Positions 15,701-41,343 of a stretch of DNA of 64,000 nt are shown here, piece after piece; position 1 is the stretch's first letter; the number at the start of each line of letters is the position of its first letter. The DNA comes from Crambe crambe. Taxonomy: Eukaryota > Porifera > Demospongiae > Poecilosclerida > Crambeidae. The position numbers and the translations under genes are program-made. Below the pieces are notes generated by a model. The model made no database searches. It saw nothing but the letters and a program-made list of their open reading frames with translations, and was not told the origin of the DNA. The stretch lies in the NCBI GenBank assembly GCA_963924555.1, contig OZ004588.1, forward strand, positions 4,774,001 to 4,838,000, written 5' to 3'.

Positions 15701-18700
15701 GTTCTGTTTGAATAGCAAAGCAGTAAACTGATAAACATATCAGTAGCATGATGTCAATTTTCATATGTGATAGTATTGGCAGACTTGCTTGGAAGTGTGC
15801 TTGATTATAAATGAATACTCCCCTTGCTATGAACTGCAAGCTTGCCAGTGCTCTGTAGTCACGTGTTCCATTGGTCCCATCTTTATAATAACCTTGAAAA
15901 GGATCCACAAAGGACTGGATACAACGAAGGTCCTTGCAGGAAATGAAGTACATGACTTTCCTGATGCATTTGATGGGATAGAGACAGAAGACTAGAATGG
16001 GGAATAGTGTTGTAATAACTATCAGAGTTATGACTGGAATGAAATAAGGCAAATGTACAGCACTTGGTTCATAGGGATTATAGTACAGAGCACTAAACTT
16101 AGTACCATGATGGAGAGGATTTACATTCACCTGGTATATTGAGTTGATACTAGTAAACAGAATTTTTGAGAAAGAAAGAAGCAGAAATGTAGCAAATGGA
16201 TTAAAGATGGATGCTTGGGATCGTAAGATCTTCTTAGTTTGGCCACACACTTATTGAAAGGCTTCCACACTTGGACGATCAGGTACACATTCCTAGCATG
16301 CAGTTCAATGAGAAGATACGTCAAAAGCATCAGGACAAGAGGATAGAAAGCTGAGATCAGTCCTATAAATAGAACATGGATGTTTGTGAGACTACTGCTC
16401 AGGCAAAATGGAGGAATAAGGTGCTGAAAGAAGTCCAGACTCCACACGTCAATCAAAGTGAAGACCAATTTGTACACATAAGGATTGATGAAGTTATCAA
16501 TGTACATTCAGAAGTAAGGATTTGGACTCAGTTTGTACATATTAGTGAAGTACTGGCAGAATAATATGTAGGCAGTGAAAGGTGGTGAGGTGGCACGCAC
16601 ATTGAAAATGATGACTATAAGGTAGAATGCTGTCAGAGGGGTGAGTTTCAGAAAGAAAAACAATATCCACTTCCAATAAGAATGCATTTCACACAGTTCA
16701 GAGCAGCAGAATACAGTGCTGGACCAAAACCAGGTATACACTTACTACACAAGAGTCCTTCTCTGTTCAGTTTTCCACATATTATATCATTTACTTGGAG
16801 GCAGGAGGTGATATCGATGGTGATAACCCTACGGACATTCAGCTTGAAGTAGAAATGAAGGCTGTATGGACGATAACCTGTATACATCACATTGTTGGTC
16901 TCATTATAACTGACGCAGGAACCAATATTCATTTCCACAGGTCCACAGTGATGTGCCAGTACACTGATGCAAGTCTGGAATAGCCTCCAGGCACAGAGCT
17001 AAAAATAATAGGGAGAGAATCAGTCCACTTTTCATCTTGAACACTTCTTGAGCTGATTTCAGCCTTAGTGAATATCAGCATATTAAATAAGCATGCATCC
17101 TTGATGTGAAACCTAGCAGTGGTATCTAACTGTTTACACTATAAGTTTCTTATAAAACCAACTCATGGAATACTTATGTGGCAAGGTCACATTAGCTCCC
17201 TTTGTACTTCCGATAGTGTATAATTAACCAGCTAGCATGGTGATAAATTCTACCATTTTTCAAAAGTAGTGACTTTTTCCTTGCATTCTGTGAAGGAGGG
17301 GACATATCCCCCTCCCATATTGGATCCAGTTGGGGGAGGTAGAGGGGTATTACACTCTCTTGTTCATGAACTTTTTTGAACCTTACACACAGCCATTCCT
17401 ACTTGTTTATCGATATAATGCAAATATGGTGATGTATCCAGCTGGCATGAGAATATGGAGTCAGAGACACTTTCTTATAGGCTCACTAGCTAGTATGGTT
17501 CCCCCTGATATCGTACTTAGCTGACTAATCAACCCTCAGCGCATGTGCAGGGGTTATAGTTGGTGTGTGTACCTGTTACATTGATAACGCAGCCAGTAGC
17601 GATTAGAGCACTTTAATATCAATGTTTAGATAATGCTCTTCAGTGTTTAAATTGAGCTGATTTTTGGAAAAAGGCTTTATACAGAAGGCAGCCTGTACTA
17701 TAATACTCCATATAATGTGCATGCATGCTCACTACTGTATGTTTCTTGACCATTACCTATTCATCTACAGGTGAGTAGTGTAGAGCAACAGCATAATGAG
17801 CTAGCTGGAGCATTTTAAAACTAGCTATAGCTTCTACAGTACGTACTAGTCTACTGGATGTATCCAAGTGCATGTTGTATAGCAAGTACATCAAGGTGTA
17901 CTGCGGAATGGCAGGATAGGTGAAGTCTTGAAAGAAAGAATGGTATTAAAATTTGTAACTCTGAAAGATGATAACTTTTGTCCCAATTATATGCAGGATT
18001 TCATCATTCATATGTACTTTGGGTGGCATATTAGTATTGTAGCAATCATCTGCAAGGTTTTGAGCATAGAGTAACCAGTGCCAACAACCACTCATAATGC
18101 TCTGAGCTTCGAAAGACCAGCCTGAGCCCTCACAAGAGAAAGTTCATTTGTAAGTAACACTTCCTTGACCAATCAATTGTTACAACACACAGAGTGACAG
18201 CATTATTTGCTTCATTTGCACTGCTAGTCATAAGATCCAAGAATCAAGGGGTTGGGGGTGTTTCTATATAGGGCACTGCAAAAATGTTTGCCGTGTTGTA
18301 GATTGAAAATGACGTGCTATTTCAAATTGTCATAGTAGCTAAGTTGAAGGTAAAGTGTGTACTTACACATACAGTTTTAAGCTGGTAAAAAGAAATGGTG
18401 GTGCATATTTGATAAGAGGATGATTAGCTATCATGAAAGGTGAACTGATCCTGTTGCTATAGTTTTCGGTTGCTACCTGGAGGTCATTCTACAGCTAACT
18501 CTGCACCTTTTGCTGCAAATAATGTTTGTACACAAATAAGTGTACAGAATTGGCTAATGACTATGAACATGTGGAATTACATGTTGTTAAAATGAAAGCT
18601 GAAAGAGGCAATAACCAACATTGCTGGGCTGATGCAAGTGCCAACATAATAGTTCCTCATGTCCACAGTCATTTACAGTGCACTACTATTATGATGTGAG

Positions 18701-21700
18701 TCTGGAATAGCCTCCAGGCACACAACCAAAAACAATTATAGTAACAGAATCAGCTAGATTCAAGACCAGACCCATGCCTCCTTGACCTTGAATATACTCC
18801 TCCAATGCTCTTGTGGATTACTCCTCCCACTATAAACTATCTATGATCACAATATCTATTACCAGGAATTTTCTTATATTCTATCATGAATATATAATGG
18901 TCCATACATAGCTGGTTACATAAAGTCCAACAAGTTGCACTGAATTATAGTGTATAACAAAGCAAGTAGGTAACCAATCATGGCAGTTGCTGAAAGGAAA
19001 AATTTGAGAGAAGTTCTGGGACGATTCATTGTTACAGGCCTGGAAAAGACAGGTATTTCACTGGGTAGGGGTGCATATGGTGAGGTGCTTGAAATGAAGA
19101 TGAATGGAGAAAGGGTGGCTGTGAAGAAGATACATGAAATGTTTGTGGGTGCTGAAGGCTGGGAGGCCAACTTACTAAAGTTTGAAGAAGAATGTGTAAG
19201 GTAGGCAATTAATTCTTGCATACAGCTATGCTAGCTAGCTCATACAGTTTGCATGTACTTTGGTCATTAGATTGCTCTAAGCAAGGGACTAGTGCTGTTA
19301 CTAATTTTATTATAGGCTCAGTGAAATAAACCACGCCAACATAGTTGCCTTTCGTGGTATATCCTTTGAAGGAAATTCAAATATCCCGATGTTGGTAATG
19401 GAGTATGTACCAAAATCACTAAGGCATTATGTGGAAGGAAACATTCCTCCAGATGATAAAAAGAGAAGCATTTTGCTTGACATTGCACAAGGACTGAGTT
19501 ATTTGCATGGACTCGATCCCCCACTGATACATCGCGATCTCACCTCAAATAATGTCCTTTTGACGGATGATCTCCATGCCAAAATAGCTGATCTGGGCGT
19601 GTCTAAACTGTTGAATCGTGCATCATTTCAAAAGATGACAAACGTTCCTGGTACTGAATCACACATGCCCCCAGAGGCCCGAGTTGTGGACCAGCAAGCA
19701 TACATGCAGCCCACCAATAAAGCAAAAAAACTGGACGTGTTCTCATTCGGAAATGTCATGATAAATGTACTGACTGGTGAGTTTCCTGTTGCTACTCAAG
19801 ATCGTGACGAGAAAGGCAAACGCAGGACTGAAGTGCAAAGACGTCATGAACTATTGATAAAAATACAAAAATCGAAAGAGAAAGATCTTATTATTCGCTG
19901 TCTCAACAATAACCCAGATCATCGTCCTGTGACAGATGAATTGGTTCTTTTTTTTCATGAAGGCTCAACAGTTGAAGAAGGTGAGTTTAGCCATAGCTAC
20001 GTATCTTGCACTGGTTTAGTTAGTGAGTTAGCATGTTAGCATGGATAAAGTGTGCACTACTTGATGCAATGGCATTATCCCATAATAATAAGATATAAAT
20101 ATCATTATTATTATTATCAAGCAATCAAATTCTCTAATATTCACAGTGATAAAAATGGTGCAGCTCGTAAAATATGAATATCTTTGTTAGCCAGACTACA
20201 ACTTTTATTTACTGTTAACATTCTTGTATAGAAATTTTGCCATTGAAAGAAGAAGAACAAGAAATCTCCTTCGTCGATGAGCCTACTTATGATGTGAAGT
20301 GCCTGGTGTGTTTTGAAATCTTTGAAGAAGCTCACCAGACGTCATGCTGTGGTACACACATATGTAGTCAATGTGTTAAGAAGATAACCACCTACTCACA
20401 GTGCAGAAATTCCAAACTTAGCAGCACATTGGATGAATTTTTCTCACGGCAGGTTCAGGGTTTGCGAGTTGAATGTTACAATTCCAGGCTGGGCTGCTCT
20501 TGGACTGGTGAATTGCGTGCATTGAAGAAACACTTTGATGATGAGTGTGAAAAAAACGCAGTGAAGTGCAAATACTGCCTTCGTCAATGTCACTTTAAAG
20601 CATACTCAGAACATGTCCAAGCCTGTTCAGAAATCCCACAACCCTGTCCCAACGGGTGCACAGCTGCGTGAATGTCCCTTCAGAGTAGTTTGGTAGTAGC
20701 CCTGTGCCTCATACAGCCAATAAGGTTATCCGGGTAGCTCCATTGGCCATGACTATGACAAATTACTCAGAGTATGTCAAGTCAGGCAGGACGTGGTACA
20801 GTGCACCTTTCTATACACATAGGAATGGGTACAAGCTTCAATTGAGGGTGGATGCTGATTGGTACAAGAAAGGTTTTGTATCTGTACTTGTGTGTGTGTT
20901 CAAAGGTGAAAAAGATCACACACTCACTTGGCCCCTTCATGCTAAAGTAGAAGTAGCATTGTACAATTGGCAAACCAACAAGCCTCTCTTCAGAAGGATA
21001 CTTCATTTGACTGGGGATGGATTTTGCTCACGCAACATGACAGACCTCCCAGCTTCATGGGGCAAGGGGGAGGTTGAGTTCATATCTCACAGTGCTTTAG
21101 CTTATGACGTGGCCAAAAACACAGCATATGTTCAACAGTTACATGATTGCTTGAGTTTTCAGATCAAAAATGTTACTTTTTAAAAATCCCCAGTTATACC
21201 AAAGCTTCCCTCGTGGGCTGGTGATAACTGCCTCGTTCCTTACTTTTCTTTCTTGAAGCAAAATAACTTCCTATTTTATGGTAACCCATTTTATACTCAT
21301 CAAAGGGGATATAAACTTTGCACTCGAGTTGATCCAAATAGATATGCTGATGGAAAAGGGAGCCATTTGTCTGTGAGTTGTACACTCATGAAGGGTGAAT
21401 ATGACAATGAATTGTCTTGGCCAATATCAGCTGATGTTATTGTCAAAATGCTCAATTGGAGGGAAGATAACAGTTCCAACTTTTCATTCAACAAGGGAAG
21501 TGATAGTAAAAGCAATTCAAGAGTGGCCATTGATGGTGTAGCTGAAATGTGTTGGGGATCAGCCAAATTTGCAACCCATTCAAGTCTTCCCTACAACCAG
21601 ATTGCCAACACCCAATACTTGAATGAAAATTGCCTCCTTTTTAAAGTCGAGTTCTTTGCTTACACTGACAGAGTTCTAGTTGCTAAGGTTCCAAATCCAG

Positions 21701-24700
21701 CTGTGGCCCCTCTCTATCCTTGCTTCACTTTGTCTGAATTTACTAAACGTAAAGCCTTTGGAAACTTATACTATGGTGACCCTTTCTTCTCTCATTGTAA
21801 TGGGTACAAAATGCAGCTTCTGTTTATGCTGCAAAGGGTACAAATGTTGGCCTGTATGTTAATTTGATGAAGGGCCCACATGATAATCAGTTACAGTGGC
21901 CATTTAATGGTGAGGTAGTGTTGGAGTTGGTCAACTGGCGAGGTGATGAACATCATCATAGAAAAGTCGTCACTTTATCATTCCATTGCACCAATAATGC
22001 TTGTGATAGAGTCATACATGGTGACAGAGGCACTTCCTGGGGGTTTGAATATTTCATCCCCCACAGCTCTCTTCCTTTTAATGCTGAAACAGCTGCGGGA
22101 AGATTGCTTACATTTCAGGGTAAAAGAAGTGGTGGTGCACTCTGTTCCATCACTACATAACATTCCCACATGGCAAAGTTATCGTTCCATACAACCTTCC
22201 TTTCAATTCATAATAAATAACTTTGGCAAAAGAAAGTCTTTAAATAGAGACAGCTTTGGCCCAGCATTGTACACTCACCAAGGTGGATACAAGATGCACC
22301 TTAATGTTGAGCCCTGTAAAGGGAACTATATTGCTATTTATGCCTGTTTGCTTTAATGAGAAAATGATGCTACACTTAGTTGGCCATTCCTTGCCAATGT
22401 AGTTGTGGAGCTTCTGAACTGGAGAGAAGATAAGAATCATCACAGCTATAACATCCAATTTCATGAGCGTGTACCTGGTGAAAACAACAGACGAGTTGAA
22501 GTGAGTGGAGATAGTAAAAATTGGGGGAATGGAAGTTTCATATTCCACTACTCACTTTCCTATAATAACTCCACCAATACAGAGTATCTAAAGGATGATT
22601 GTCTGTGCATTAGAGTCAAGAATGTAGCAACTTACTCCACGAGGTTGGTCAGAAAAGCACCAAGATGGCAGGCACAGAACATAGCTCCCAGCTTCACCAT
22701 AACCAATGTTACCAGTCGCAAGCAAATTGGTAATCTTTACTTCAGTCCTCCTTTTTATGTTACTAAGTATAAAATGTGCCTCAAAATATACGTTGGAGGA
22801 TCAGGGGCTGGCAAGAACACATATGTATCCATGTATGCCTGCTTGCTCAAGGGTGAAAATGATCACACACTGGAGTGGCCATTTTGTGGTGATATTACTG
22901 TTGAGGTCTTGAATTGGCGTGGAGACCATGGGCACTACAAGAATGTTCTCTGTCTGGATGCTCCCCATCTTAATAGTCATTCCAGAGTCATGACTGATGT
23001 CACATGCCCTAGTGGTTATGGCGAGTATAAGTTTATGCCAATATCCACACTCTTGTCCAAGTATCTTGAAGACGACTGTATGCGTGTACACGTAACCAAC
23101 GTGGTCATGTACAACACACCATTGAGGTTAAAGACCCCAAGATGGCAGAATTGGTGGAATAAAAGTTCAAATCAACTATTGGAGTTTACTGTCACTGGTG
23201 TCTCAAGTTGTCTGGCCAATAAGAGTTCATATTACAGTCCACCATTTTACACACACTCAAATGGATACAAGCTGAGGCTGGAAGTTGAACTGGCGAATTC
23301 AGAAGGACAAATGGGACTATATGCAAGACTCTTGGCAGGCGAGTACGATTCGTCGCTGAAATGGCCGATGAACGTCGAGGTGACCGTAGAGATGGTCAAT
23401 TGGGTCAGCAACAATTTCCATATTGTTGAAATAATCAAGTTTGGAAGAGCAAGTTTAGATGCTCGTAGATGTGTACCTAAGGAAGAAGAGAGTGCTCAAG
23501 TTTCATGGGGATATCCTGAATTCTGCTCTCATGCAAAATTATTTGGTGGGCCACGTCATATTCAGTACGTTGAAGAGGATTGTATACACATTCGTGTGAA
23601 AGGATGCATTATACACTCTCGAAAAGGACTTTTCTTTTAAATTGAATACTTAGAAAAGGATTGCCATTTATAAAAAATTGTTATCAGCTAGCTCTTTTTT
23701 GCTATGTTTCACATTTTGTGTGCTGTGATACATGTAGCTCTTCTGAAGTAAAACTACCTATTGAACAAGTAAGGGAAAAAACATTTCTGTGAAATGAAAA
23801 AATGTAGGGATGACCATTGCTCAAAAAAGTAAAGAAACAAGGGTAGGTATGAAGGATGGAAGGATGGAAATGGGATTAATCTTTGTTCTGTATATCCAGC
23901 CAACAATCCCTACATATACGTCAGGTAGCTTCAAATAATAGTGTGTAATGTAGGGATTGTTGGCTGGATACACAGAACAAAGATTGATCCCATTTCCTTC
24001 CTTCCATCCTTCATACATACCCTTGTTTCCTTACTTTTTTGAGCAATGGTCATCCCTACATTTTTTCATTTGACGGAAATGTTTTTTTCTCTTACCTTTT
24101 TTTTCATGGTTTTATGTATAAAGTTCATTTTTCTATGTGTATGCAGGGACAGATGAGAGAAGGATAGTTCTCTGATAGCAGAATATTGGATGTCCAGGAT
24201 GCAGATGAATCTGAAATAGAGTCTACGGATTGGTGAATCTGAGATCCCCGAGTTGATAGAGTAGTCTATGATCTAGTACGCACATTATCTAGAGAGCGCT
24301 AGAGCTAGAGCCTAGAGCAGAGCTTAGCTGAGTAACATTATAATTTCGAATAATTGGATATCAAATACATGCGCATGGTTATTATTGAAAAAAAAAAAAA
24401 AAAAAAAAAAAAAGGCTTCCTGATATAAATTAAGTTAGACTATAGCTAGTCACAATCAAGGAATCTCATTGGTCCATTTGGTGAATTTTATTCACACCTT
24501 ATGGCACTTAGAATTCACTTGCCTTAGGATGAAAACCCGGTAAAGACGGTCATTCAAATTGGTCCAACTCTTGCAACGCATCACAGTGGCCATGGTTATT
24601 GTTTCTAGGTGCGCTCTGATTCATTTTTAAAATCATGGTTATTGTTTCCAAGTGCGTGTTGAGGTAAGTTAAACAACTCCAGTGATTAATAAGTTAGACA

Positions 24701-27700
24701 CCTTGACCAACGGGATCTACAGTCTGTTTAGAAACCTTCGGGCCCTTAGTAGCGCCCTCGCTGTGCTCGGGACGCTACAGCCCAGGGCTCTCAGGTTTCT
24801 AAACAGACCGTAGATCCTTTGGTCTCATTGTCTAACTATTATTTAGTCAAGTACAGTGCTCCATAGTGTCTCCTTCTACATCGACTCTTCAAGTTTGACG
24901 AGTGCAAAAGATCGTAGCTGGTTGAATTTGGACCAGAAATCATAGCTGTAGCTTGAGTGGTTCGAGAGATATGGTTGTCTAAGAATAATAATAATAATAA
25001 CAATAAAGAAGAAGAATCCAGCGATTTACCTGCTTGCCGTATTTCTGATACGGTAAGCTCCTTGGTCCTGAAACTTGGTCTGCACTTTGTAGTAGGTTCT
25101 AGTAGGCTGGATAATCATTCACAGTAGCTTTAGCTAAGTCTCTAAGTGGGGGAACTAGAACTTTGCTTTTGTATTAGTCTATAGGCAGCGCGCGGTGCCG
25201 TCTGTGTCATCCCTACATAGCAATCTCTGCTTATAGTCCAGGCCTACATCTAGATATACAACATTTGAAAGTAAGCAAGCAAGCAAGTAAGCAAAATCAA
25301 ATAAATAAACCAAAACAAAAACAACAAACAAACAAACAGCTTTCCTATAGCTTAAGCCTTTCAAGAGGCTCCAACTGGAGGCAGGAGGTGATGCTGATGG
25401 CAATGAGATCATGAAGATTTAGTTTGGAGTTAAAATGAAAGCTGCATGGACAATAATTTGACATTGCAACAAAATCAGTTCACCTTTCACCTTGAACATT
25501 AAGCTGATTTTGGTGTTTATTATTGATACGAAACTTAGAAAGTGCTATTAAACCACTTGTACTAATACAACAAAATAACTACTTGTTAGCATGGTCACCT
25601 TACCTGGTTGCAGCCCTTCCCTCTTTAAGTATACAGACAAGTAGGGATGGCTGTGTGTAAGTTCATAAACAGCCCTCCTAGTTTCAATATAGTTGCACAT
25701 GTCCACATGCAGTCATTTTACAGTGCACTGCTATTATGATGCAGGTCAAAAACAATCATAGTGACAGAATCAGATTTCAATTGGTGGAAAGACTGGATCC
25801 ATGCACCTACACCCCTTGACCTTGAATATACTCATCCAATGCTCTTGAGGATTAGTCCTCCCACTATAAATTATCTATGATCACAATACATAGTACAAAA
25901 CCCATTTTAGGTTATCAAGTTGCAATTTGCAACTCAGATAACCTAAAAATGGGTTGTTTTTACACATTTGTTTTTACAGTGTATCTATTACCAGGAATTT
26001 TCTCATATTCTATCATGAATACCATCATAATGGTCCATATATAGCTGGCTACATAAAGTCCAACATCAGTTGCACTGAATTATAGTGTATAACAAACCAA
26101 CTAGCTGACCAATCATGGCAGTTGCTGAAAGGAAAAATTTGAGAGAAGTTCTGGAGCGATTCATTGTTACAGGCCTGGAAAAGACAGGTATTTCACTGGG
26201 TAGGGGTGCATATGGTGAGGTGCTTGAAATGAAGATGAATGGAGAAAGGGTGGCTGTGAAGAAGATACATGAAATGTTTGTGGGTGCTGAAGGCTGGGAG
26301 GCCAACTTATTAAAGTTTGAAGAAGAATGTGTAAGGTAGGCACTTATTCTTACATACAGCTATGCTAGCTAGCTAGCTAGCTAGTCCATACAGTTTGCAT
26401 GTACTTTGGCCATTAGATTGCTGTAAGCAAGGGACTAATGCTGTTATTAATTTTATTATAGGCTCAGTGAAATAAACCATGCCAACATAGTTGCCTTTCG
26501 TGGTATATCCTTTGAAGGAAATTCAAATATCCCGATGTTGGTAATGGAGTATGTACCAAAATCACTAAGGCATTACGTAGAAGGAAACATTCCTCCAGAT
26601 GATAAAAAGAGAAGCATTTTGCTTGACATTGCACAAGGACTGAGTTATTTGCATGGACTCGATCCCCCACTGATACATCGCGATCTCACCTCAAATAATG
26701 TCCTTTTGACGGATGATCTCCATGCCAAAATAGCTGATCTGGGCGTGTCTAAACTGTTGAATCGTGCATCATTTCAAAAGATGACAAACGTTCCTGGTAC
26801 TGAATCACACATGCCCCCAGAGGCCCGAGTTGTGGACCAGCAAGCATACATGCAGCCCACCAATAAAGCAAAAAAACTGGATGTGTTCTCATTTGGAAAT
26901 GTCATGATAAATGTACTGACTGGTGAGTTTCCTGTTACTACTCAAGACCGCGACGAGAAAGGCAAACGCAGGACTGAAGTGGAAAGACGTTGTGAACTAT
27001 TAGTAAAAATACAAGAATCGAAAGAGAAAGATCTTATTATTCGCTGTCTCAACAATAACCCAGATCATCGTCCTGCGACAGATGAATTGGTTCGATTCTT
27101 TGAAGGCTCAACAGTTGAAGGTGAGCTTAACCATAGAATTATGTATCTTGCACTGGTTTAGTTTATGAGTTAGCACGGATAGTGTGCACTACTACTTGAT
27201 GTAGTGACATTGTCCCATAATAATAAGATATAAATATCATTATTATTATCAAGCCATCAAATTCTCTAATATTCACAGTGATAGAATTGCAAAATATGAA
27301 TATCTTTGTCAGCCAGACTACAACTTTTATTTACTGTTAACATCCTTGTATAGAAATTTTGCCATTGAAAGAAGAAGAACAAGAAATCTCCTTCGTGGAT
27401 GAGCCTACTTATGATGTGAAGTGCCCAGTGTGTTTTGAAATATTTGAAGAAGCTCACCAGACGTCATGCTGTGGTACACACATATGTAGTCAATGTGTTA
27501 AGAAGATAACCACCTGCCCACAGTGCAGAAATTCCAAATTAACCAGCATATTGGATAAATTTTTCTCACGGCAGGTTCAGGGTTTGCGAGTTGAATGTTA
27601 CAATTCCAGGCTGGGCTGCTCTTGGACTGGTGAATTGCGTGCATTGAAGAAACACTTTGATGATGAGTGTGAAAAAAATGCAGTGAAGTGCAAACACTGC

Positions 27701-30700
27701 CTTCGTCAATGTCACTTTAAAGTATACTCAGAACATGTCCAAGCCTGTCCAGAAACCCCACAACCCTGTCCCAATGAGTGCACAGCTAAATCAACAAAGA
27801 GAAAAGATTTGAAGAAGCATCTTGAGCGTGAATGTCCCCTCAGAGTAGTTGGTAGTAGCCCTGTGCCTCATACAGCCAATAGGGTTATCCGGGTAGCTCC
27901 ATTGGCCATGACTATGACAAATTACTCAGAGTATGTCAAATCAGGCAGGACATGGTACAGTGCACCTTTCTATACACATAGGAATGGGTACAAGGTTCAG
28001 CTGAGGGTGGATGCTGATTGGTACAAGAAAGGTTTTGTATCTGTACTTGTGTGTGTTCTTAAAGGTGAAAAAGATCAGACACTCACTTGGCCTCTTCATG
28101 CTAAAGTAGAAGTAGCATTGTATAATTGGCGAACCAACAAGCCTTTTTTCAAAAAGGTACTTCATTTGACTGGGGATGGATTTTGCTCACGCAACATGAC
28201 AGACCTCCCAGCTTCATGGGGCAAGGGGGAGGTTGAGTTCATATCTCACAGTGCTTTAGCTTATGACGTGGCCAAAAACACAGCATACGTTCAACAGTTA
28301 CACGATTGCTTGAGTTTTCAGATCAAAAAGGTTACTTTTTTAAAATCCCCAGTTATACCAAAGCTTCCCTTGTGGGCTGGTGATAACTGCCTTGTTGTTC
28401 CTTACTTTCCTTTCTTAAAGCAAAATAACTTCCTATTTTATGGTACCCCATTTTATACTCACCAAAGGGGATATAAACTTTGCCCTCGTGTTGATCCTAA
28501 TGGATTTGGTGATGGAAAAGGGAGCCATTTGTCTGTGAGTTGTAACATCATGAAGGGTGAATATGACAATGAATTGTCTTGGCCGATATCAGCTGATGTT
28601 GTTATCAAAATGCTCAACTGGAAGCAAAATAAAAACCATAGAAGTTACACAGTTTCATTCAACAAGGGAAGTGATAGTAAAAGCAATTCACGAGTGCCCA
28701 TTGATGGTGTAGCTGAAATGTGTTGGGGATCGCCGAAATTTGCTGCGCATTCAAGTCTTCCCTACAACCAGATTGCCAACACCCAATACTTGAATGAAAA
28801 TTGCCTCCTTTTTAAAATTGAGTTCTTTGCTTACATGGATAAAGTTTTAGTTGCTAAGGTTCCAAATCCAGCTGTGGCCCCTCTCTATCCTTGCTTCACT
28901 TTGTCTGAATTTACTAAACGCAAAGCCCTTGGAAATGTATACTATGGTGACCCTTTCTTCTCTCATCGTAATGGGTACAAGATGCAGCTTCAAGTTGATG
29001 CTGCAGTGGGTACAAATGTTGGTCTATATGTCAATTTGATGAAAGGTCCACATGATGATCAGTTACAATGGCCATTTAATGGTGAGATAGTGTTGGAGTT
29101 GGTCAACTGGCGAGGTGATGAACATCATCATAGAAAAGTGGTCACTTTATCATTCCATTCCACTGATGGTGTGCGTGATAGAGTCATACATGGAGACCGA
29201 AGCACTTCCTCAGGGTATAAAGAATTCATTCCACATAGTTCTCTTCCTTTTAATGCTGAAACAGGTACAGAATACCTGCGGGAAGATTGCTTACATTTCA
29301 GGGTAAAAGAAGTGGTGGTGCACTCTGTTCCATCACTATACAACATTCCAACATGGCAAAGTTATCGTTCCATACAACCTTCCTTTCAATTCACAATAAA
29401 TAACTTTGGCAAAAGAAAGTCTTCAAAAAGAGAGAGCTTTGGCCCAGCATTTTACACTCACCAAGGTGGATACAAGATGCGCCTTAATATTGAGCCCTGT
29501 AAAGGGAACTATATTGCTATTTATGCCTGTTTGCTTCAAGGAGAAAATGATGCTACTCTTAGTTGGCCATTCCTTGCCAATGTAGTTGTGGAGCTTCTGA
29601 ACTGGAGAGAAGATAAGAATCATCACAGCTATAACATCCAATTTCATGAGCGTATACCTGGAAAAAACAACAGTCGAGTTGAAGTGAGTGGAGATAGTAA
29701 AAGTTGGGGCACTGGAAGTTTCATATCCCACTACTCACTTTCCTATAATAACTCCACCAATACAGAGTATCTAAAGGATGACTGTCTGTGCATTAGAGTC
29801 AAGAACGTAGCAACTTACTCCACAAGGCTGGTCAGAAAGGCACCAAGATGGCAGGCACAGAACGCAGCTCCCAGCTTCACCATAACCAATGTTACCAGTC
29901 GTAAGCAAATTGGTAATTTTTACTTCAGTCCTCCTTTTTATGTTGCCAAGTATAAGATGTGCCTCAAAATATACGTTGGAGGATCAGGGGCTGGCAAGAA
30001 CACATATGTATCCATGTATGCCTGCTTGCTCAAGGGTGAAGATGATCATATACTGGAGTGGCCATTTTGTGGTGATATTACTGTTGAGGTCTTGAATTGG
30101 CGTGGAGACCATGGGCACTACAAGAATGCTCTTTGTCTGGACACTCCCCATGATGATAGTCATTCCAGATGTACGACTGATGTCACAGTCCCTAGTGGTT
30201 ATGGCAAGAATAAGTTTATGCCAATATCCACACTCTTGTCCAAGTATCTTGAAGACGACTGTATGCGTGTACATGTAACCAACATGGTCATGTACAACAC
30301 ACCATTGAGGTCAAAGTTCCCGAGATGGCAGAATTGGTGGAATAAAAGTTCAAAGCAACTATTGGCATTTACTGTCACTGGTGTCTCATGTCGTCTGGTC
30401 AACAAGAGTAGTTACTACAGTCCACCATTTTACACACACTCAAATGGATACAAGCTGAGGCTGGAAGTTGATATAGCATATTCAGAAGGACAAATGGGAC
30501 TATATGCAAGACTCTTGGCAGGTGAGTACGATTCATCACTGAAATGGCCAATGAACGTTGATGTGAGCGTAGAGATGGTCAATTGGGTCAGCAACAATTC
30601 TCATATCATTGAAATAATCAAGTTTGGAGAATCAAGTTTGGATGCTTGCAAACGTGTACCTAAGGAAGAAGAGAGTGCTCCAACTGCAAGGGGATATTCT

Positions 30701-33700
30701 AAATTCTGCTCTCATGCAAAACTATTTGGTGGGCCACATCATATTCAGTACGTTGAAGAGGATTGTATACACATTCGTGTGAAAGGATGCACTATACACT
30801 CTCGAAAAGGACTTTTCTGAATACTTAGCCATTTTTATAATTATTAGAAAAGGTATTTAAATAAAAAAAACTGTTCTCTGCTAGTTCTTTTCTGCTATGT
30901 TTTATATTGTGTGTGTTGTGATACATGTAGCTCTTATGTAGAAAAACTACCTCTTATTTTTATTGAATAATGGAATGCAATCTCTGCTTTGAAATTCAGG
31001 TCTACACAACATTTGAAAGCAAGCAAGTGAGCAAGCAAAGCATTCCAAAACCAAAATCAAACAAATAAACCATAACAAAAATAACAAAGAAACAAACAAA
31101 CAGCTTTCCTATAGCTTAAGCCTCTCAAGAGGCTCCAACTGGAGGCAGGAGGTGATGCTGATGGCAATGAGATCATGAAGATTTAGTTTGAAGTTAAAAT
31201 GAAAGCTATATGGAGAATAATTTGACATTGCAACAAAATCAGTTCACCTTTCACATTGAACATTAAGCTGATTTTGGTGTTTATCATTGATACGAAACTT
31301 AGAAAGTGCTATTAAACCACCTGTACTAATAAAACAAAATAACTACCTGTTAGCATGGTCACTTTACCTGGTTGCAGCCCCTCCCTCTTTAACTATACAT
31401 ACGAGTAGGGATGGCTGTGTGTGAGTTCATGAACAGCCCTCTTAATTTCAGTAACCACACAACTACTCCACTCTAATGGAGGGATAGAGTAGCTGGGTGT
31501 TGTTATTGAACTAGGAGGGTGTTCATCAAATTTTTTGAAATAGAGAGGTATTCTGGAGTTATGGAAAAAAAAAAGTCCAATGGGGCAATCCGTGCCATCC
31601 CTACTTGGAGAGTACTATGCTATTGTACTCTCTGATAATAATCATACCAGCATAATCAACTATAGTTAGTATGTAGATATTGCTATGCACGTATACACCT
31701 CCAGTAACATTAAGATGCTCCACCCTATGGGGGTATATATCTCACTGGAGGTCACATGATCTGTTGGGTCAAAACCCATGCAACAGAAGGAACTAGCTAG
31801 ACATGCAGAAGGTGGTCTTCACTCACTCACTCAAATGAAGATTGTGGTTCACTGCACCATGTGTTGAAACTACACATGATTGGGCCCCTCCTACAACCAC
31901 ACCTTACTGATTAATTACCTGTACTTGTGAAGTGAATATCCCTTACCCAGTCTTCATGGCCTGTCAGAGATATCACTCTTGTAAACTGTAATTAAACGAA
32001 CTGGTTCACTGTATGAAATCATACACACCACTTAAAACCCTCCACCAGGGGCATAGCTAGACAGATCTATTCCATTTCACAAAATGCACTTGCAAATACG
32101 CAAATCATATATTATTCTGAATTTATCATACGTAATAAAATGATCTCATATGATATATACTCATTGGCATCATTTGCATGTACCATGGCCAGTTATAATA
32201 AATCGTAGTTGATCTGACAATTTGATGACATATGGCACTGAATTTGAACTGCAAACACCCTTTTATTGCACTAGTGTCACATCAACTGGAAAATGGCTGA
32301 TCAAACTGCAGTTTTATCTGGAGACTTTTCCAGTGTCAAATTGTTATAACCCATGCGTAGTAGTACAGACTAAGCTTAAGGCTAGGGCTAGGGCTAGAAC
32401 CTTAGCACACAATATTGACGGACTGACCTGGTCATCTTGTTTTGCATAAATTTCAACTTTTCCTACGTCAGTTCCACATGCAAGAATCACATGACCATCA
32501 TCCACACAGTGAATATCCAGTCCTAACACAAACCCTGAACCACATGCCAGCGTCTGAAGTAACTGAAATTTTCTTTCAGATGATGATTCATCCCTTTGCC
32601 ATATCTTGACAGTAAAGTCCGAAGAGCTAGAGGCGATTGTGGTGGTGATGGAGTCTTTTGATGATTTGTGATGTATGCCAGCAACACAGTTTACAGGGTC
32701 AGTGTGACCAACCAAACTCTCATCAAGTTCATACTGCAAAAAATAAGTAAATAATGTACATACGTAGGCCTTTGCCATGGCCACTTATGTTCAGGAGTGT
32801 AAAAAATTTCTTCTAAATAAAAGTTAAGTAGGGATAGCTTAAAATCTAGCTGGGCTGTATAATGTACTGCAGCCTCGTATGAAAACAATCCCTACTTTTA
32901 CAACTGCCATAGCTAGCTATAGGTAGTGGATGTAAATGTAGGGATTGTTTTCATACGAGGCTGCAGTACATTATACAGCCCAGCTAAATTTTAGGCTATC
33001 CCTACTTAACTTTTTATTTAGAAGAAATTTTTTGCACTCGCTTATTTCCATCCTTTTTCTTGGTTGAATTGTGTATGTAAAGAATTGAGGGTGACTGTCA
33101 CTTCAACTGAGACATGAGGCTACAGTACAGCACTATACAAAGCCAGATCTACATAAACCTCATCTTTATCTTTTTCTTTTGTAGGTACATACAGTCTCTG
33201 GTGATTGCAAGTAGCAAGGCCACGTCTCTCAGCTATATATCAAACCTTTTGATCTTCTTGTGTAAATTCTTTTGGCAATGGCTGAAATTGACAGCTACTC
33301 CTATTCACTTAACCTCACTTACCTATTTAATGATTTTCAGGATGAAAATAGTTAATTTCTGTTCGATATATGTAACAAGAGCTACCAAGTATAGTAAAAT
33401 GTAAAACAGTTTTAGAAGAAATGGAGAACTAACCTAGCAGTATCTGGAAGTGTAGCTGCAGTTAAAGTGTTTGGTAAAGGATGCTGTGGTTCTTGATCAA
33501 AAAATTGCATGGAATGATTGCTTTTGGTAAGGGGTTGTACATGCACGTAATTTGTGTAGGAAAAAATGGCATCTGCTCGTAACATGCATATAAGTACAGT
33601 CCTCTATATTACTCTAATGGCAAAGAAGTTTCACACTAATATGACCAAGTCTAACTAAATAGTTACTAATTTTATAGCTTGATGCCTTTGGACCTCTGCC

Positions 33701-36700: not shown

Positions 36701-39177
36701 TTAGCCAATCTTATAAGTGTATTTGTTAAACATGGTAAGGTGAGTTTTTATTATGTTCATGATTAAAGGAAAAAGTCAGTGAGTCTAGAAAAAAAAGATA
36801 AGCACGGAAATAGGCAGAAGAAACTGAAAAGGAGAGAATTGCAAACCACACAAATTCAGTGATAAAAACTTCTAAGTCAATTGCAAACTAAAAAGTGAAA
36901 GCAGAGATTATTGACCAAGACACAGAGCTACTTACTGGCGATCTAATGTAGCAATAGTAACAGTGTAGCCGCCAGTCTCATTGCAAAGAAAAGTCTTTGA
37001 AAGAGATGGAACTGAAGAATAATATTATGGCGGAAAACAGTGAGAGAATTATTACATCAAATTTTGAAGATGGAAGGTACGGTACACTGATGATGTAAGA
37101 GCATGCTGCCATGAATTACACCTAAATGTTAGTGTAAGAAATGTAAAATCAGCTATCAAGGAAATGTTGCACATAGAGGAGTTGATTGTTTACCTATTGT
37201 GCATGATATGATGCTCAAGTGCCATACAATTGCTCAAGCTCATATTGGTGAGAAGTTATAGGATGATGGAGTGCACTACACCTAGCAGACAGATGGCAGG
37301 ACAAAACATGGCAGCATTTTATGTAACAGAAACATTTTGTTTGGGTTTCAAACACATTTTTCAGGATCTGCGCAAACTCTTGATTGATTTAAATGTCATC
37401 AGAAAAGAGATTGGAGAAGAGTCCGATTATTGTAAACTGAAGAACACCATTTCAGATTGACATGCAGCTGCTTCTGTCCGAGTACCAAGGTAAAATATTT
37501 TGCCCGATATTGTATCTGGATGGGATCAGATGACTAGTGGTGAACATAAGCAGTTGACCAGGATGACTATTTTTATTGTGGGCTACATTTTTAGTCGGCT
37601 TGGCTGAGGGACTTTTCAAAGTTGGATTTTCAATGAAGATGATACTAAAGTCCTTCAATGATCAAAGACTTGTTAAGAACCACTTGTAAAACTTTCCACT
37701 GCAGAGGATCATAGTCACCATTAATATTGCGGCATATAAAGCACTGGAATCAATTATTGGTGACTGGCCCATATTGGAGGTACTTACAAACTTCTCCTGT
37801 GGAGCTTACAGATGAGTAGATTTCTTCGAGAAGTGGAGTCAAGATGCTACTGGATAATGAAGCTCTGCTTTTTTCCAATTGTACATCTGCAATGGATGAT
37901 TAATGGAGTGATGCCCATCTTGTTCAAGAAAGGTTGCTGATACGGGAGTGAATTTCATGATATAATTGACCTTTTCATTGTGTCTGAAACACTTTGTGTC
38001 AACTAATGAAAGAAATTCTGCCATTCTTGATAGATTACTCTCTCAAAGGCTAAATGATTTGTATATATAGCGAGGTTGAGACACAGTTAGCACTTTTGAA
38101 AAGTATGAAAGCGAAATTGGATGCCCTAAAGATTTTAAGAAAGTGCTTAGGGTCATGACAAACACCTTTTTCAGTTCTCGCCAGAACCATAGGCATTTAC
38201 GTAGCACAAAATTTGATAGATACACTAGTCTCAAAATTGAAGACGTTTTGAAAGACCCAGAACTTCTTCTGTCAGACGCATCAAGCATTTGTTCTTTTGT
38301 GATGGTAAAGATATATGCAGTGGAACAGTGAACCAAAGAGTTTCGATGTCTCATGGAGCCACCTGTACTAGTAGTGTGGTAAGGTCTCTTACCTGTTGGC
38401 CACAGACTATTTACTAGTAAGACACCTCACCACAGGCAGTAAGAGCTAGCTTGTTTTAGTTGTCTTTATGGACCTCTTCCCATTTTCTAAACAAGTATTC
38501 GCCTCGGTGATCACATACACCCTCAGTCTTTAATTCTATAAAGAATCCCCCCATACGAAGATACTTTTTTTCCTTTCCTCTGCTGGATGACCTTAAAATG
38601 GAGATTATTGATATGTTGTTTTTACTACTTTCTTTAGTTGATATAATATGATGTTACTATGTTTTTGTCATTTGCTTTGTTAGTTTCAGCTTCAAAATGA
38701 TATTTTTTGTTGCTATGTTTGTTTTGACAGTATTATTGTGTAATGAAAGTATGGTGAAAAATTGAAATCACCAATATTAGCCATTTTGCACATATTAATC
38801 AAAGTGGATATTATTGCATATCAGAGTGATGATTCTGTATACATTTCAGAAATATATATATATATTGTTTGGAATCACTGAATTATTGTAACAGATGTTG
38901 CAGGTGAAAATGCAATCGGTATTTTGAACTGATGTTGCAGGCGAAAAATGCTTGCATGCAGTGCATGAAACAAACCATTCTAATGGTATGACTTCATCAC
39001 TAAGATTATCAATAAATTATGTATGTCATCATTGCTTGTATACGTACTAACCTCTCCCTTTCTAGCCAAGGCAACAGAATTTCCGGCTCCATAAGCTAAA
39101 AGGCCTTCAGAACTCCAATCTACATTGTGCGGGGTTTGATTACAACCAACAGAAACATACTGCAAAGATGCTGCCAT
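7633..39177 (-). CDS. ELP2: Elongator complex protein 2 (WD40 scaffold), 16 exons
   Basis: ELP2 is the WD40 double-propeller subunit of Elongator, the complex that modifies wobble uridines of tRNAs. Reading the minus strand, 16 exons join in phase at GT-AG borders: 39,177-39,052; 34,441-34,271; 32,733-32,428; 31,985-31,919; 12,198-12,010; 11,825-11,689; 11,339-11,213; 10,867-10,617; 10,215-10,141; 10,090-10,030; 9,974-9,903; 9,516-9,392; 9,058-8,881; 8,236-8,112; 8,037-7,919; 7,855-7,633. They give 783 codons plus a stop, near the ~826 of human ELP2. Diagnostic stretches include [80 protein letters not shown] and the C-terminal [12 protein letters not shown]. The start MAASLQ is the only ATG close to the conserved first blade. 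Intron 4 is about 19.7 kb and contains other genes; intron 1 (4.6 kb) contains transposon debris. Confidence 0.93.
9533..9692. repeat. Three ~53 bp tandem repeats in an ELP2 intron
   Basis: Three successive copies share 'atcatagtgcatc' and 'ggctcaata', each ending in a 'taggcttaaaa' block. They lie between ELP2 exons 11 and 12 and end just before a poly-C tract. Confidence 0.8.
9737..9768. repeat. Poly-C tract of 32 bases
   Basis: An uninterrupted run of about 32 C within an ELP2 intron. The complementary strand is a G-run that could form quadruplex-type structures, and its length is likely to be variable or mis-assembled. Confidence 0.9.
10382..10570. repeat. Three ~65 bp tandem repeats in an ELP2 intron
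   Basis: Three copies carry 'cagttctt(a/g)caatcatgt' followed by 'aaggtatg' and 'agttctgaagga'. They lie just downstream (minus sense) of ELP2 exon 8, whose border at 10,617 is unaffected. Confidence 0.85.
12634..12710. repeat. (GA)n microsatellite
   Basis: About 38 GA units in an uninterrupted run, near the exon-5 end of the giant ELP2 intron. Confidence 0.95.
13184..14245 (-). pseudogene. Multi-pass membrane protein, REGLLCSKC family, copy 1 (shrunken)
   Basis: The reading runs from high to low coordinates. It has a Cys-rich extracellular stub with [11 protein letters not shown] and [12 protein letters not shown], then hydrophobic segments ([46 protein letters not shown]). I associate this architecture with an expanded, uncharacterised sponge membrane-protein family. 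Compared with copy 2 (15.4-17.0 kb) it lacks about 11 bases near 13,823, which shifts the frame, about 135 bases of a cytoplasmic loop where a 36 bp unit is repeated four times, and about 225 bases near 13,265. The N-terminal part (about 14,150-14,220) retains an ..[18 protein letters not shown].. reading. It is almost certainly non-functional. Function of the family is unknown to me. Confidence 0.65.
13386..13532 (-). repeat. Four in-frame 36 bp tandem repeats in membrane-protein pseudogene
   Basis: The 36 base unit encodes the 12-residue block [12 protein letters not shown] four times on the minus strand. The homologous position in copy 2 has the unit once ([12 protein letters not shown], about 16,130). 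The expansion sits exactly where the preceding loop has been deleted. Confidence 0.9.
15404..17035 (-). pseudogene. Multi-pass membrane protein, REGLLCSKC family, copy 2
   Basis: A start at 17,035 gives a good signal peptide ([18 protein letters not shown]). Frames then switch repeatedly: an N-terminal Cys-rich part with [11 protein letters not shown]; hydrophobic segments near 16,670-16,600, 16,490-16,300, 16,190-16,140 and 16,060-16,000; a soluble stretch with [16 protein letters not shown]; then a C-terminal hydrophobic part with [15 protein letters not shown] near 15,690-15,500. Relative to copy 1 there is an 8-10 base loss near 16,970 and a 10 base loss near 16,684, and single-base shifts are needed near 16,220 and 15,710. 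With four shifts it is probably a pseudogene, although sequencing error could explain one or two. It is a tandem duplicate of the 13.2-14.2 kb copy. Confidence 0.65.
17040..18640. other. Non-coding spacer with membrane-gene remnants
   Basis: About 17,190-17,350 matches 14,340-14,560, so the tandem duplication includes the region upstream of the membrane gene. I see no convincing exon in the rest. Confidence 0.5.
18650..18740 (-). pseudogene. Remnant of membrane-protein N-terminus
   Basis: The block containing 'gagtctggaatagcctccag' and 'gcacacaaccaaaaacaat' matches the N-terminal exon of the membrane-protein copies at 13-17 kb. Only this fragment remains. A similar fragment lies at about 25,690-25,760 in front of the second kinase gene, so it belongs to the duplicated unit. 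Confidence 0.6.
18980..23640 (+). pseudogene. Kinase-RING-TRAF zinc finger-MATH gene, decayed tandem copy
   Basis: Exons 18,980-19,200, 19,316-19,980 and 20,232-23,640 match the intact copy at 26,115-30,820. The kinase part is still open ([30 protein letters not shown]). In the RING, the penultimate zinc ligand Cys is Tyr (TTYSQC against TTCPQC). The third exon is then broken by a 38 base deletion creating a stop at 20,669-20,671, a base insertion near 20,691, a stop at 21,181-21,183, a base deletion near 21,822, an 11 base deletion near 22,091 and a TAA for CAA at 22,354. The last two and a half MATH domains (22,405-23,640) remain open. A truncated kinase-only product of about 440 codons could still be made; whether it is expressed cannot be seen here. 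Confidence 0.85.
23770..24098. mobile_element. Long hairpin MITE (~150 bp arms)
   Basis: The arm containing 'gtagggatgaccattgctca' and 'tttgttctgtatatccagcc' is repeated inverted around a ~27 base centre near 23,920-23,945, and the symmetry extends outward through the 'aaaaaacatttctgt' flank. No ORF of its own is meaningful. It lies directly 3' of the decayed kinase copy and is absent after the intact copy. Confidence 0.85.
24388..24413. repeat. Poly-A tract
   Basis: A run of about 26 A in the spacer between the two kinase-TRAF copies. It may be the tail of a retroposed sequence. Confidence 0.85.
24692..24836. mobile_element. Short inverted-repeat element (~44 bp arms)
   Basis: The left arm contains 'gggatctacagtctgtttag' and the right arm its inverse with 'ctaaacagaccgtagatcc'; the symmetry extends to 'gttagaca' and 'tgtctaac' at the ends. 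The ~55 base centre is GC-rich. Confidence 0.8.
25899..25955. repeat. Short hairpin upstream of intact kinase gene
   Basis: 'cccattttaggttatc' and 'gataacctaaaaatggg' pair around a 23 base loop. It is missing from the corresponding place in front of the decayed copy, where the flanking 'tatctattaccaggaatttt' sequence is continuous, so it is a copy-specific insertion. Confidence 0.75.
26115..30820 (+). CDS. TKL-like kinase fused to RING, TRAF zinc fingers and six MATH domains
   Basis: Exons 26,115-26,335, 26,462-27,120 and 27,354-30,820 join in phase to 1,448 codons. Residues ~25-285 form a protein kinase: glycine loop [14 protein letters not shown] lysine, HRDLTSNN catalytic loop, ADLG metal-binding motif (DLG, not DFG), PPEA and DVFSFG, most like TKL kinases. 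Residues ~313-350 are a RING finger (CPVC...[10 protein letters not shown]...CPQC). Residues ~365-455 carry TRAF-type zinc fingers ([23 protein letters not shown]). From ~477 come six MATH/TRAF-C domains, starting near 477, 647, 806, 970, 1134 and 1295, each with an (S/G)xPFYTHxxGYK-type strand and a GExDxxLxWP turn. Known TRAFs have one MATH and no kinase. The expected activities are phosphorylation and ubiquitin ligation with multivalent MATH binding in the cytosol; no signal peptide or membrane segment is seen. It is nested in an ELP2 intron on the opposite strand and has a decayed tandem copy. Confidence 0.92.
30985..31450. repeat. Downstream copy of the kinase-unit flank
   Basis: This block matches about 25,215-25,680, including 'aacaaacagctttcctatag' and 'gaggcaggaggtgatgctga'. 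The shared flank marks the edge of the ~6-7 kb tandem unit that duplicated the kinase-TRAF gene. Part of it resembles the Cys-rich exon of the membrane-protein family in minus orientation. The remaining spacer to 31,918 shows no other gene. Confidence 0.65.
32778..33050. mobile_element. Long hairpin MITE (~115 bp arms)
   Basis: The arms contain 'aaaaaatttcttctaaataa' and 'tactgcagcctcgtatgaaa' and their inverse, around a ~45 base centre near 32,900-32,945. The inner border 'gtagggattgtttt' resembles that of the 23,770-24,098 hairpin, suggesting one family. It lies in ELP2 intron 2, about 45 bases upstream of the exon 3 acceptor. Confidence 0.85.
33051..34270. other. ELP2 intron 2, no gene seen
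   Basis: AT-rich intronic sequence between exon 3 and exon 2. Short ORFs here have no recognisable content. Confidence 0.6.
34555..35995 (+). pseudogene. Crypton-like tyrosine recombinase (DUF3504 type), degraded
   Basis: The segments 34,760-35,042 and 35,093-35,836 are offset by a frameshift and together read like the Crypton/DUF3504 recombinase also domesticated in KCTD1 and ZMYM proteins: [87 protein letters not shown] and SGHRSESSI. Close to the expected catalytic tyrosine the text reads ICSHAS, so the nucleophile may be gone. Inverted 'gttgaata'-containing hairpins flank it: about 34,588-34,628 on the left and 35,896-35,991 on the right ('cacactcctttgttgaatat' against its inverse). It sits in ELP2 intron 1. 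Confidence 0.75.
36050..37010. other. ELP2 intron 1 spacer with a small inverted repeat
   Basis: No gene is seen. 'gttctcataaattagctta' at about 36,264 and 'gaagctaattttatgagaa' at about 36,313 form an imperfect hairpin, and 'acatatcacatggc' occurs twice beside it (36,118 and 36,299). Confidence 0.5.
37020..38345 (+). pseudogene. Degraded transposon-type ORF, copy 1
   Basis: Several frames carry fragments of one repetitive [23 protein letters not shown] near 37,350, the block around [17 protein letters not shown] near 37,555-37,606, and [17 protein letters not shown] near 38,085. I associate similar sequences with a transposon-linked family common in cnidarians and sponges, but I cannot name it. 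Stops and shifts are frequent. Its second half recurs at 60,530-61,290, where the middle part is inverted. Confidence 0.55.
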
Positions 39178-39302
39178 GTGATAACACTTCACAACTCGAT
39201 CGATCCTTTCCTACTCTTTCTCCTTTAATGGGTAAAGGGTAAGCACTCAAACTAGATCTTGCATGCTCCACTTGGTAAAGGGATTACTCGTTCGATATGT
39301 CA

Positions 39303-39322
39303 TGTGTGTGTGTGTGTGTGTT
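39303..39322. repeat. (TG)n microsatellite
   Basis: Ten TG units about 130 bases upstream of the ELP2 start. The duplicated copy near 62,178 has only a trace of it. Confidence 0.8.
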
Positions 39323-40052
39323 GTAATGGGTATAAATATTATAAGGAAGATGCAGAGCACAGAAAGTAGCCTGAGGTGGTCATAGAAAGATAAAAGGGAG
39401 TTTTGAAAACTAAAATAAATGTGCAAAATGAGTTATGACTGGTGAGTTCCTGGAGAGGATGCTGTATTATTCCGTCCCCAGCTGTGAGTGGGCAATATCC
39501 ATGGGCTACTCTGGTAACTGGATGAGTTGGAGATCTTTCTGGGGAGGATGGGTTCAGTGTGAAAAGGGAACCAGACTCCTCATTCTTCTGTCCAATCTCT
39601 ATTGTCTTTGAAGGTTGACTTAAATCCTACAAAGAACAACAACGGCAACAACAACACAATAGATAATGTTGTCCCAAGAAGCTGGGAAAGGTGCCCAGTA
39701 TAATACAGGAGTTAAAACTGATCTCTCATGATTTCATAAACTGTGTGTGCACTGTGATGATGAAGAGGTTACCAATTTTCGGTTAGAGGAATATAGCTAA
39801 TACTTACTGGCTTATCAGCCCAGGAGAAGGTGTCTGTCTCCTCTTGTTGATGCAGGGAAAGTGGACGTCTTGTTTAAGGGGTGTGCAATATACAATACTG
39901 TTACAACAATGGGATGCTTTCCCTGCACAAATATTTTACCTTTCTGGTAGCCACAAAATATTTGGTACAGGGTGGGATTGAGGGGGTTTGCAACCCTGTG
40001 CCCTAGAAATCTAGGTATGGTAACACCTGGCTTCTATCTACATGATTGTGGT

Positions 40053-40312
40053 GTTACCTGGATACTTGGTGACTTGGTAACGGTTATACCTATGGAATCA
40101 GTAACTTAATTTAAGAATCCGTATTATATCTGGTAACCAGAGGTAACTGGGGAAAGGAAATATGATCACTATCTTGTAACCCCTGGAACCAATGGAACCA
40201 ATGGCAACCGAAAGTAACTACCATTATTACAGCAATTAATTTCATATCCTTCCCTGCTTTAACTTATAAACTTAGATTCGTTCAAGTTACCAAGTTACCA
40301 AGTATCCAGGTA
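40053..40312. mobile_element. Inverted-repeat element present only in duplication copy 1
   Basis: The ends read 'ttacctggatacttggt' and the inverse 'accaagtatccaggtaa'. The corresponding place in copy 2 (near 63,060) is continuous from 'aacacctggctt' to 'atgtaatgaag', so the element was gained in copy 1 or lost from copy 2. Confidence 0.75.
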
Positions 40313-40492
40313 ATAACCCCCTCCCCCTCCTCCCATATCTTGCCATATCTAGGCGTATGTAATGAAGACATCAGAATTACTTGGCTAGCCATATCAATGA
40401 TCTAAGATTGGTGTGAATAGAAGAAATAGTCTATGTATACATCACACATCCTATTGCAGTTTACTTTGGCTTGTACTTTCAAGGTTGCACTT

Positions 40493-40619
40493 TACACTGT
40501 AAAAATTAAAGTGTTTACTGCACACCATTTTGCCCCAATACACACAGTGTTAGTGTATATAGCTATAGGGACAATTTAGTGTGCAGTCTGCACAGTACAC
40601 ACTTTCATTTTACAGTGTA
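40493..40619. mobile_element. Small MITE present only in duplication copy 1
   Basis: The ends are 'tacactgtaaaaattaaagt' and the near-inverse 'acactttcattttacagtgt', 127 bases overall. Copy 2 (near 63,175) reads straight across from 'cgcactt' to 'aggtaggg'. Confidence 0.75.
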
Positions 40620-41343
40620 CTTAGGTACAGGCACACACACCTTGATAATAAAATTAATGGGGAGGGGGCATGGAAGGGTTGTTAGGGTAATATCCCTGCC
40701 CCCTAAATGATAATAATTCTGACATTGAAGGTCCTGCTTTGTGAGCTGTGTGGTCAGTCATAGTGTAGGCAAAGTGGTGAATCACCCCCAAAATTGTCAT
40801 CACACACCTCTAAATGTCAATCCAGAGATTATATGTCCTATACAAAATCACCACAGTTCATGTAACATAGTTATTATCATCATGAAAAGTTATATAACCA
40901 GTCCATGCCTGTATCAGCTGAAGCACAAAAATAAGGCCACACCAAGTCTATTAGTTTCTGGTCCCCCGCCCGCCTGCTAATCACGCTCGCGGGAATTTGA
41001 GGACTATAATGATAATTATGTAGCAAAAGAAGTAGAAGAACAGAGGACCTCGTGCGTGTTGTGTGAAATAATTATTGTGAAATGTTGTACTAGTTGCTCC
41101 ACCAGCCATGCCTTTGATCAACGTAGAACTGTTATATCTGAACATTCTACCCTTTTACCGTGGAAGATTGCAAACTTGCAGCAGCCATGATAGTCGCAAT
41201 TACCGCCCGCCCGCATGTTAATTTAAAAGGGGAAAGACCAGAAACTAATAATTGACTTGGTGTGGCCTAACATACTGTATTTATCATTAACTAAGAGTCA
41301 TCGAGTGCGTGCAGTGCAAGCGTAGTATACTAGCTGCAAAGTC

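Follow-up and report, generated by a model that had tools for sequence, protein, structure and literature searches.

A candidate kinase, RING, TRAF zinc finger and MATH fusion gene in the sponge Crambe crambe

In the animals studied, the TRAF ubiquitin ligases and the kinases of the IRAK and RIPK groups meet by recruitment. The gene described here, copy A, would encode counterparts of both in one chain. It lies on the plus strand, at positions 26115-30820, of a stretch of 64,000 nucleotides of the sponge Crambe crambe (the window, whose positions serve as coordinates throughout; C11:4774001-4838000, in a genome assembly of 143 Mb and 119 contigs). With a probability of about 0.55, we consider copy A to be a genuine gene fusion in a siliceous sponge, in which an N-terminal half derived from a sponge family of TKL-like kinases is joined to a TRAF-type ligase half that has no coiled coil and in which MATH domains have multiplied to six, and which would work by the steps proposed in the last section.

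The TRAF ligases share with copy A the order RING finger, TRAF-type zinc fingers and MATH, with the zf-TRAF family scoring over its cut-off; the nearest solved structures are TRAF6 for the RING and zinc fingers and TRAF5, TRAF3 and TRAF2 for the MATH domains. Unlike the TRAFs, copy A has an N-terminal kinase, six MATH domains instead of one and no evident TRAF-N coiled coil. Because it departs from that family in its coiled coil, in its number of MATH domains and in carrying another enzyme, we do not class it as a TRAF. Its kinase domain resembles those of IRAK, RIPK and other TKL/Pelle-like kinases in sequence and in its catalytic K, HRD and D(F/L)G motifs. It differs from IRAK and RIPK in that the ligase is fused rather than recruited and in that no Death domain was found by Pfam (nor a RHIM or CARD domain, all at E<=0.001).

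The preliminary description of this locus held that the kinase partner of known TRAF proteins, IRAK or RIPK, is a separate protein. MAP3K1 belongs to another kinase family, has another domain order and is not known to contain TRAF zinc fingers or MATH domains. The available part of one source gives it both kinase and E3 ubiquitin ligase activity in one chain (PMC13072407), as proposed for copy A, and the claim is therefore too strong as a general rule. In agreement with the preliminary description, no protein with the kinase, RING, zinc finger and MATH architecture was found in the literature searched, which left out most subscription journals and the animal protein databases. Proteins of the TRIM-MATH type have B-boxes in place of TRAF zinc fingers, and are not known to carry a kinase. 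They include TRIM37-like and amphioxus TRIM proteins, with a RING and 0-2 MATH domains in the part of the source available (PMC3503706). Sponge TRAFs and kinases appear as responsive genes in the accessible parts of two further papers, where no fusion is mentioned (PMC8242945, PMC6208332). Term searches in the accessible text of others returned neither TRAF nor MATH (PMC7385117, PMC12465263) or neither MATH nor 'traf' (PMC12909245). Pattern searches for relatives gave one unconfirmed match in viral_contigs and 40 matches, none confirmed, in genome_contigs, both being virus- and prokaryote-centred sets that are uninformative on other sponges. The parts are thus known (TRAF-type RING, zinc fingers and MATH, TKL kinases, kinase-E3 proteins such as MAP3K1), and their combination appears to be new, although a database record of the architecture that no paper describes is quite possible.

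Gene and domain structure of copy A

Rejoining three exons yields a single frame of 1,448 codons and a stop, exactly as previously described for 26115..30820. The features of the gene and its predicted protein are as follows (aa, amino acids; bp, base pairs; pLDDT, the AlphaFold2 confidence score).

26115..26335, plus strand: exon 1, with the start codon and the N-lobe of the kinase (VAVKK); its frame and GT donor (AAG/GTAGGC) are identical in the tandem copy B
26336..26461, plus strand: intron 1, 126 bp, GT-AG; copies A, B and D share its splice sites, and the C16 relative has it at the same place
26462..27120, plus strand: exon 2, remainder of the kinase with its motifs
aa 27-284, plus strand: protein kinase, Pfam Pkinase, E 2.8e-36
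27121..27353, plus strand: intron 2, 233 bp, GT-AG, without AATAAA or ATTAAA
27354..30820, plus strand: exon 3, encoding the RING, the zinc fingers and all six MATH domains up to the stop; the frame is open from 27341 for 1,159 codons
27422..27526 (aa 317-351), plus strand: candidate RING finger, by match to TRAF6 RING-zinc finger structures and by ligand spacing; under the Pfam cut-off
27596..27835 (aa 375-454), plus strand: TRAF-type zinc fingers, three by CCHC spacing; zf-TRAF in two stretches; TRAF6 and TRAF4 zinc finger matches
27878..28351 (aa 469-626), plus strand: MATH1, Pfam; AlphaFold2 model with pLDDT 76, TRAF folds in PDB
28376..28843 (aa 635-790), plus strand: MATH2, Pfam; match to the TRAF5 TRAF domain, E 1.2e-19
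28877..29332 (aa 802-953), plus strand: MATH3, Pfam; partner of C16 MATHa
29372..29827 (aa 967-1118), plus strand: MATH4, Pfam; partner of C16 MATHb
29861..30307 (aa 1130-1278), plus strand: MATH5, Pfam; partner of C16 MATHc
30350..30817 (aa 1293-1448), plus strand: MATH6, Pfam; partner of C16 MATHd
30860..30865, plus strand: AATAAA, resembling a polyadenylation signal, 39 bp 3′ of the stop

In exon 3 no Met precedes codon 479, which lies C-terminal to the RING and zinc fingers, and these domains therefore need an upstream exon. The two further copies on C11 (the tandem copy B and a third copy, D) retain all four splice sites, and a diverged relative on contig C16 (L009) has introns at the same two positions and in the same phases. 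Read-through of intron 2 adds 13 codons before a stop (open reading frame 26451-27161), so that a kinase-only short form is possible. Frame and splice sites together support the claim that kinase, RING, zinc fingers and MATH domains form one covalent protein.

The domains named in the preliminary description were all recovered. Its complete kinase core corresponds to the Pkinase match with the catalytic K, HRD and D(F/L)G; the best PDB matches are BAK1, TNNI3K, CTR1 and Roco4, and we take the kinase to be TKL / Pelle-like. For the RING, every zinc-ligand position has a candidate residue (C317, C320, C332/C333, H336, C338, C341, C348 and C351), and the best match of the RING and zinc-finger stretch to RING-zinc finger structures of TRAF6 has an E of 2.9e-8. 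Its CCGxHxC spacing also occurs in L024, which is an ordinary TRAF from this genome with a RING-like domain, zinc fingers and MATH. In Pfam, six families were found in the whole protein, with zf-TRAF above cut-off at aa 421-457 and TRAF-mep_MATH in six stretches (E 1.2e-121). In PDB, TRAF domains account for 49 of the 50 matches listed for the MATH1 model, the last being SPOP; the 9ogv and 9olb chains among them are named TRAF4. Multivalency through tandem MATH domains instead of a coiled coil had also been proposed, and by eye no coiled coil is evident between the zinc fingers and MATH1, where the 40 aa after aa 454 hold four Pro.

The relative on C16 and the copies on C11

The C16 relative (C16:856469-852329, minus strand) has an open frame of 1,199 codons. 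Its kinase shares 68% identity with that of copy A, with the catalytic loop HRDLTSNN changed to HCNLTSNN. Its RING is a stub, in which the first two zinc Cys are replaced by Tyr and after which Pfam detects no zinc finger. A 12-aa unit is repeated 15 times, in frame, between the kinase and the stub, and four MATH domains (Pfam) follow the stub. In a tree of 11 MATH domains, these four pair one to one with MATH3-6 of copy A (ultrafast bootstrap 93-100), and MATH1 of copy A has the longest branch. The one-to-one pairing implies that the MATH array and the fusion already existed when the two genes split, and the intact relative, with the same two introns and the MATH3-6 correspondence, likewise indicates an old fusion.

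Between copy A and the C16 gene, the synonymous divergence (dS) and the ratio of nonsynonymous to synonymous divergence (dN/dS; Nei-Gojobori, custom script) are 0.74 and 0.253 for the kinase (281 codons) and 1.12 and 0.217 for MATH3-6 (627 codons), values that are averaged since the split and hence give no measure of present constraint on either gene. Kinase and MATH domains are, by these ratios, under long-term constraint. Among 52 kinase positions invariant in eight sister kinases, copy A keeps 48, HRD included, and the C16 gene 40. Eight positions are lost in the C16 gene alone, among them the R and D of HRD and, in the activation segment, a T, a G and a T. In the relative-rate test, chi-square is above 3.84 for three of the eight outgroups, the C16 gene evolving faster.

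Both other C11 copies look like pseudogenes in this assembly (stop codons were counted only at fully aligned codons of copy A). The tandem copy had not been reported in the preliminary description:

18980..23640, plus strand: copy B, 91.6-93.6% DNA identity to copy A, broken

Copy B contains 4 frameshifts and 3 in-frame stop codons, and one of its RING Cys is replaced by Tyr. Copy D (C11:4666313-4671669, minus strand), about 128 kb away, has nine frameshifts, two internal stops and another at the last sense codon.

Related kinases and genomic setting

Of the 179 listed kinase places, four have a MATH place no more than 2.3 kb away, namely copies A, B and D and the C16 gene, with the next 42 kb off; these listings cover part of the candidates, and further kinase-MATH genes are possible. 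The first-look candidates scored were 69 of 741 and 121 of 1944 for kinases, 150 of 239 for MATH and 150 of 388 for zf-TRAF. The 179 places come from two kinase listings merged by hand, one of which shows part of its matches; duplicates, rows with RING or MATH only, fragments of exons from the copies on C11 and the short, partial entries that close this second list were left out. The genome holds at least 150 MATH and at least 150 zf-TRAF places above the family cut-offs. This very large TRAF-like expansion lies mainly at C8 0.26-2.01 Mb and C3 8.2-9.5 Mb, and for 91 of the 150 MATH places in the list a zf-TRAF place is also listed no more than 2.5 kb away. According to the available part of one study, MATH is not correspondingly expanded in organisms that have TRADD-N expansions (PMC8195603).

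Eight related kinase frames were scanned for further domains. Kelch repeats occur in L012 and L026, NHL in L027 and SH3 in L019, and the other four contain no further recognition domain in the open frame. The kinases of L012, L026 and L027 are 35-38% identical to that of copy A and are combined with propellers in place of MATH. L023 begins with a stretch 33% identical to the RING and zinc-finger region of copy A, in which Pfam finds no RING at E<=0.01, and it ends in NHL, not MATH, as its C-terminal recognition module. A kinase and a RING in one frame were found by Pfam in none of the 10 frames scanned. On these grounds, the fusion looks like one product of a tendency in sponges to recombine kinases and ligase-like modules with a variety of recognition domains.

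In the window, exons of ELP2 (Elongator subunit 2) lie on the minus strand at 32344-32784 (residues 103-199), 10515-10883 (residues 377-462) and 9281-9637 (residues 550-588); since they flank the kinase-MATH genes on both sides, these genes appear to be nested in ELP2 on the opposite strand. An unnamed gene is present in two similar copies at 12897-17125 (minus strand), where three of four frames have no Pfam match and one has a weak JAMP match under cut-off. Frames for an ephrin-receptor ligand-binding domain and fibronectin III occur at 41396-41989 and 43595-43990 (plus strand). The segments 37837-40914 and 60727-63439 are diverged copies of each other, with pieces 82-96% identical and one inverted, and a tandem repeat occupies 49295-50399. 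Elsewhere in the genome, L042 (C15:877600-878000) and L044 (C15:865500-865900) contain silicatein-like exons whose active site (SYAFS) has Ser where the protease has Cys. We take the Ser active site to be the silicatein hallmark and a marker of a siliceous sponge, which supports the sponge host assumed in the preliminary description. Other silicatein-like loci have a Cys active site (L036-L039 and L043) or no motif (L040 and L041).

Proposed function and alternative explanations

If copy A is a working fusion gene, its string of MATH domains would dock several clustered or different ligands, such as receptor tails or adaptors, in place of the trimer formed by the TRAF coiled coil. Clustering of the ligands would gather kinase and RING domains, the kinase could cross-phosphorylate its own chain or bound partners, and the RING/zinc-finger module could ubiquitinate the same complex, so that a single chain would do the job of a separate TRAF and IRAK or RIPK. 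The C16 relative, without a catalytic Asp or a RING, is probably a scaffold, competitor or decoy for these ligands. The docking of ligands, the kinase and ligase activities and this relation between the two genes are inferences, and so is the signalling role, in immunity or cell recognition, put forward in the preliminary description. Only tentatively would we go further, to six differently specific MATH domains that read clustered ligands and drive their own kinase and ligase, with the C16 gene, a pseudokinase with MATH3-6 but no RING, as a built-in competitor, within a sponge system in which a single kinase family is recombined with modules of the Kelch, NHL and TRAF types.

Several observations weigh against a working fusion gene. 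The RING scores 18.1 of the 27 bits required for zf-C3HC4_3 (that of the ordinary TRAF L024 is also under the cut-off, at 24.1 bits), and the AlphaFold2 model of the RING and zinc fingers, made from two rows, reaches a pLDDT of only 39. At the TRAF2 peptide-contact sites, which we take to be R393/Y395, MATH1-6 have R-D, R-D, Q-D, N-E, K-Y and E-D; these are mostly unlike TRAF2, only MATH5 having K-I-Y, and TRAF-type peptide binding is therefore not assured. The six MATH domains may have different ligands, or perhaps none of them binds a classical TRAF peptide. The partial coverage of the kinase and MATH listings and the averaging of the A-C16 ratios, both described above, count on the same side. 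So do the MATH substitutions since the tandem duplication (synonymous/nonsynonymous 34.5/43.5 in copy A, 29/36 in B and 42/49 in D), by which the recent changes of copy A do not appear to be under tighter constraint than those of B and D, both broken; with two of the three C11 copies broken, copy A could be on the same path.

These substitutions, the breakage of B and D and the loss of the catalytic Asp and RING in the C16 gene would all fit a real but decaying fusion, in a lineage-specific family made up mainly of remnants with little present function. We consider this unlikely, since copy A remains open throughout with its catalytic and zinc residues intact, and the C16 frame has stayed open at a dS of ~0.7-1.1, with dN/dS of 0.22-0.25 in both halves. 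It is a little easier to imagine, though still rather unlikely, that the protein is a multivalent scaffold or adaptor, with the MATH string as its working part and the enzymes incidental: the C16 gene retains MATH3-6 and a kinase fold without catalytic Asp or RING, and the MATH region is large and constrained in the long term, but copy A retains the core catalytic residues and zinc ligands. Very improbable, in our view, is a pair of adjacent genes, one for a kinase and one TRAF-like with an unrecognised 5′ exon, whose joined frame would be a modelling artefact. The single-gene model of copy A is a prediction from sequence, which also tells against our preferred explanation, and intron 2 read-through could give a kinase-only product. 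Several findings nevertheless speak against two genes: exon 3 has no Met ahead of its RING and zinc fingers; intron 2 is short, with no polyadenylation signal in it and AATAAA after the stop; A, B, D and the diverged C16 gene share splice sites and phase; and every other listed kinase is at least 42 kb from a MATH place.

Three further candidates were rejected: a chance frame, given six MATH domains at E 1e-121; a mobile-element product, no such domain being among the Pfam families found; and an assembly artefact fusing two genes, the same structure being present on C16.

As a working fusion, copy A would offer a natural test of whether tandem MATH domains can replace a coiled coil and of whether phosphorylation and ubiquitination have to take place on one and the same complex, with the C16 relative, which lacks key residues of both enzymes, as a matched natural control. 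More broadly, the large, recombining kinase and TRAF-like families of this sponge may bear on how early-branching animals built intracellular recognition.

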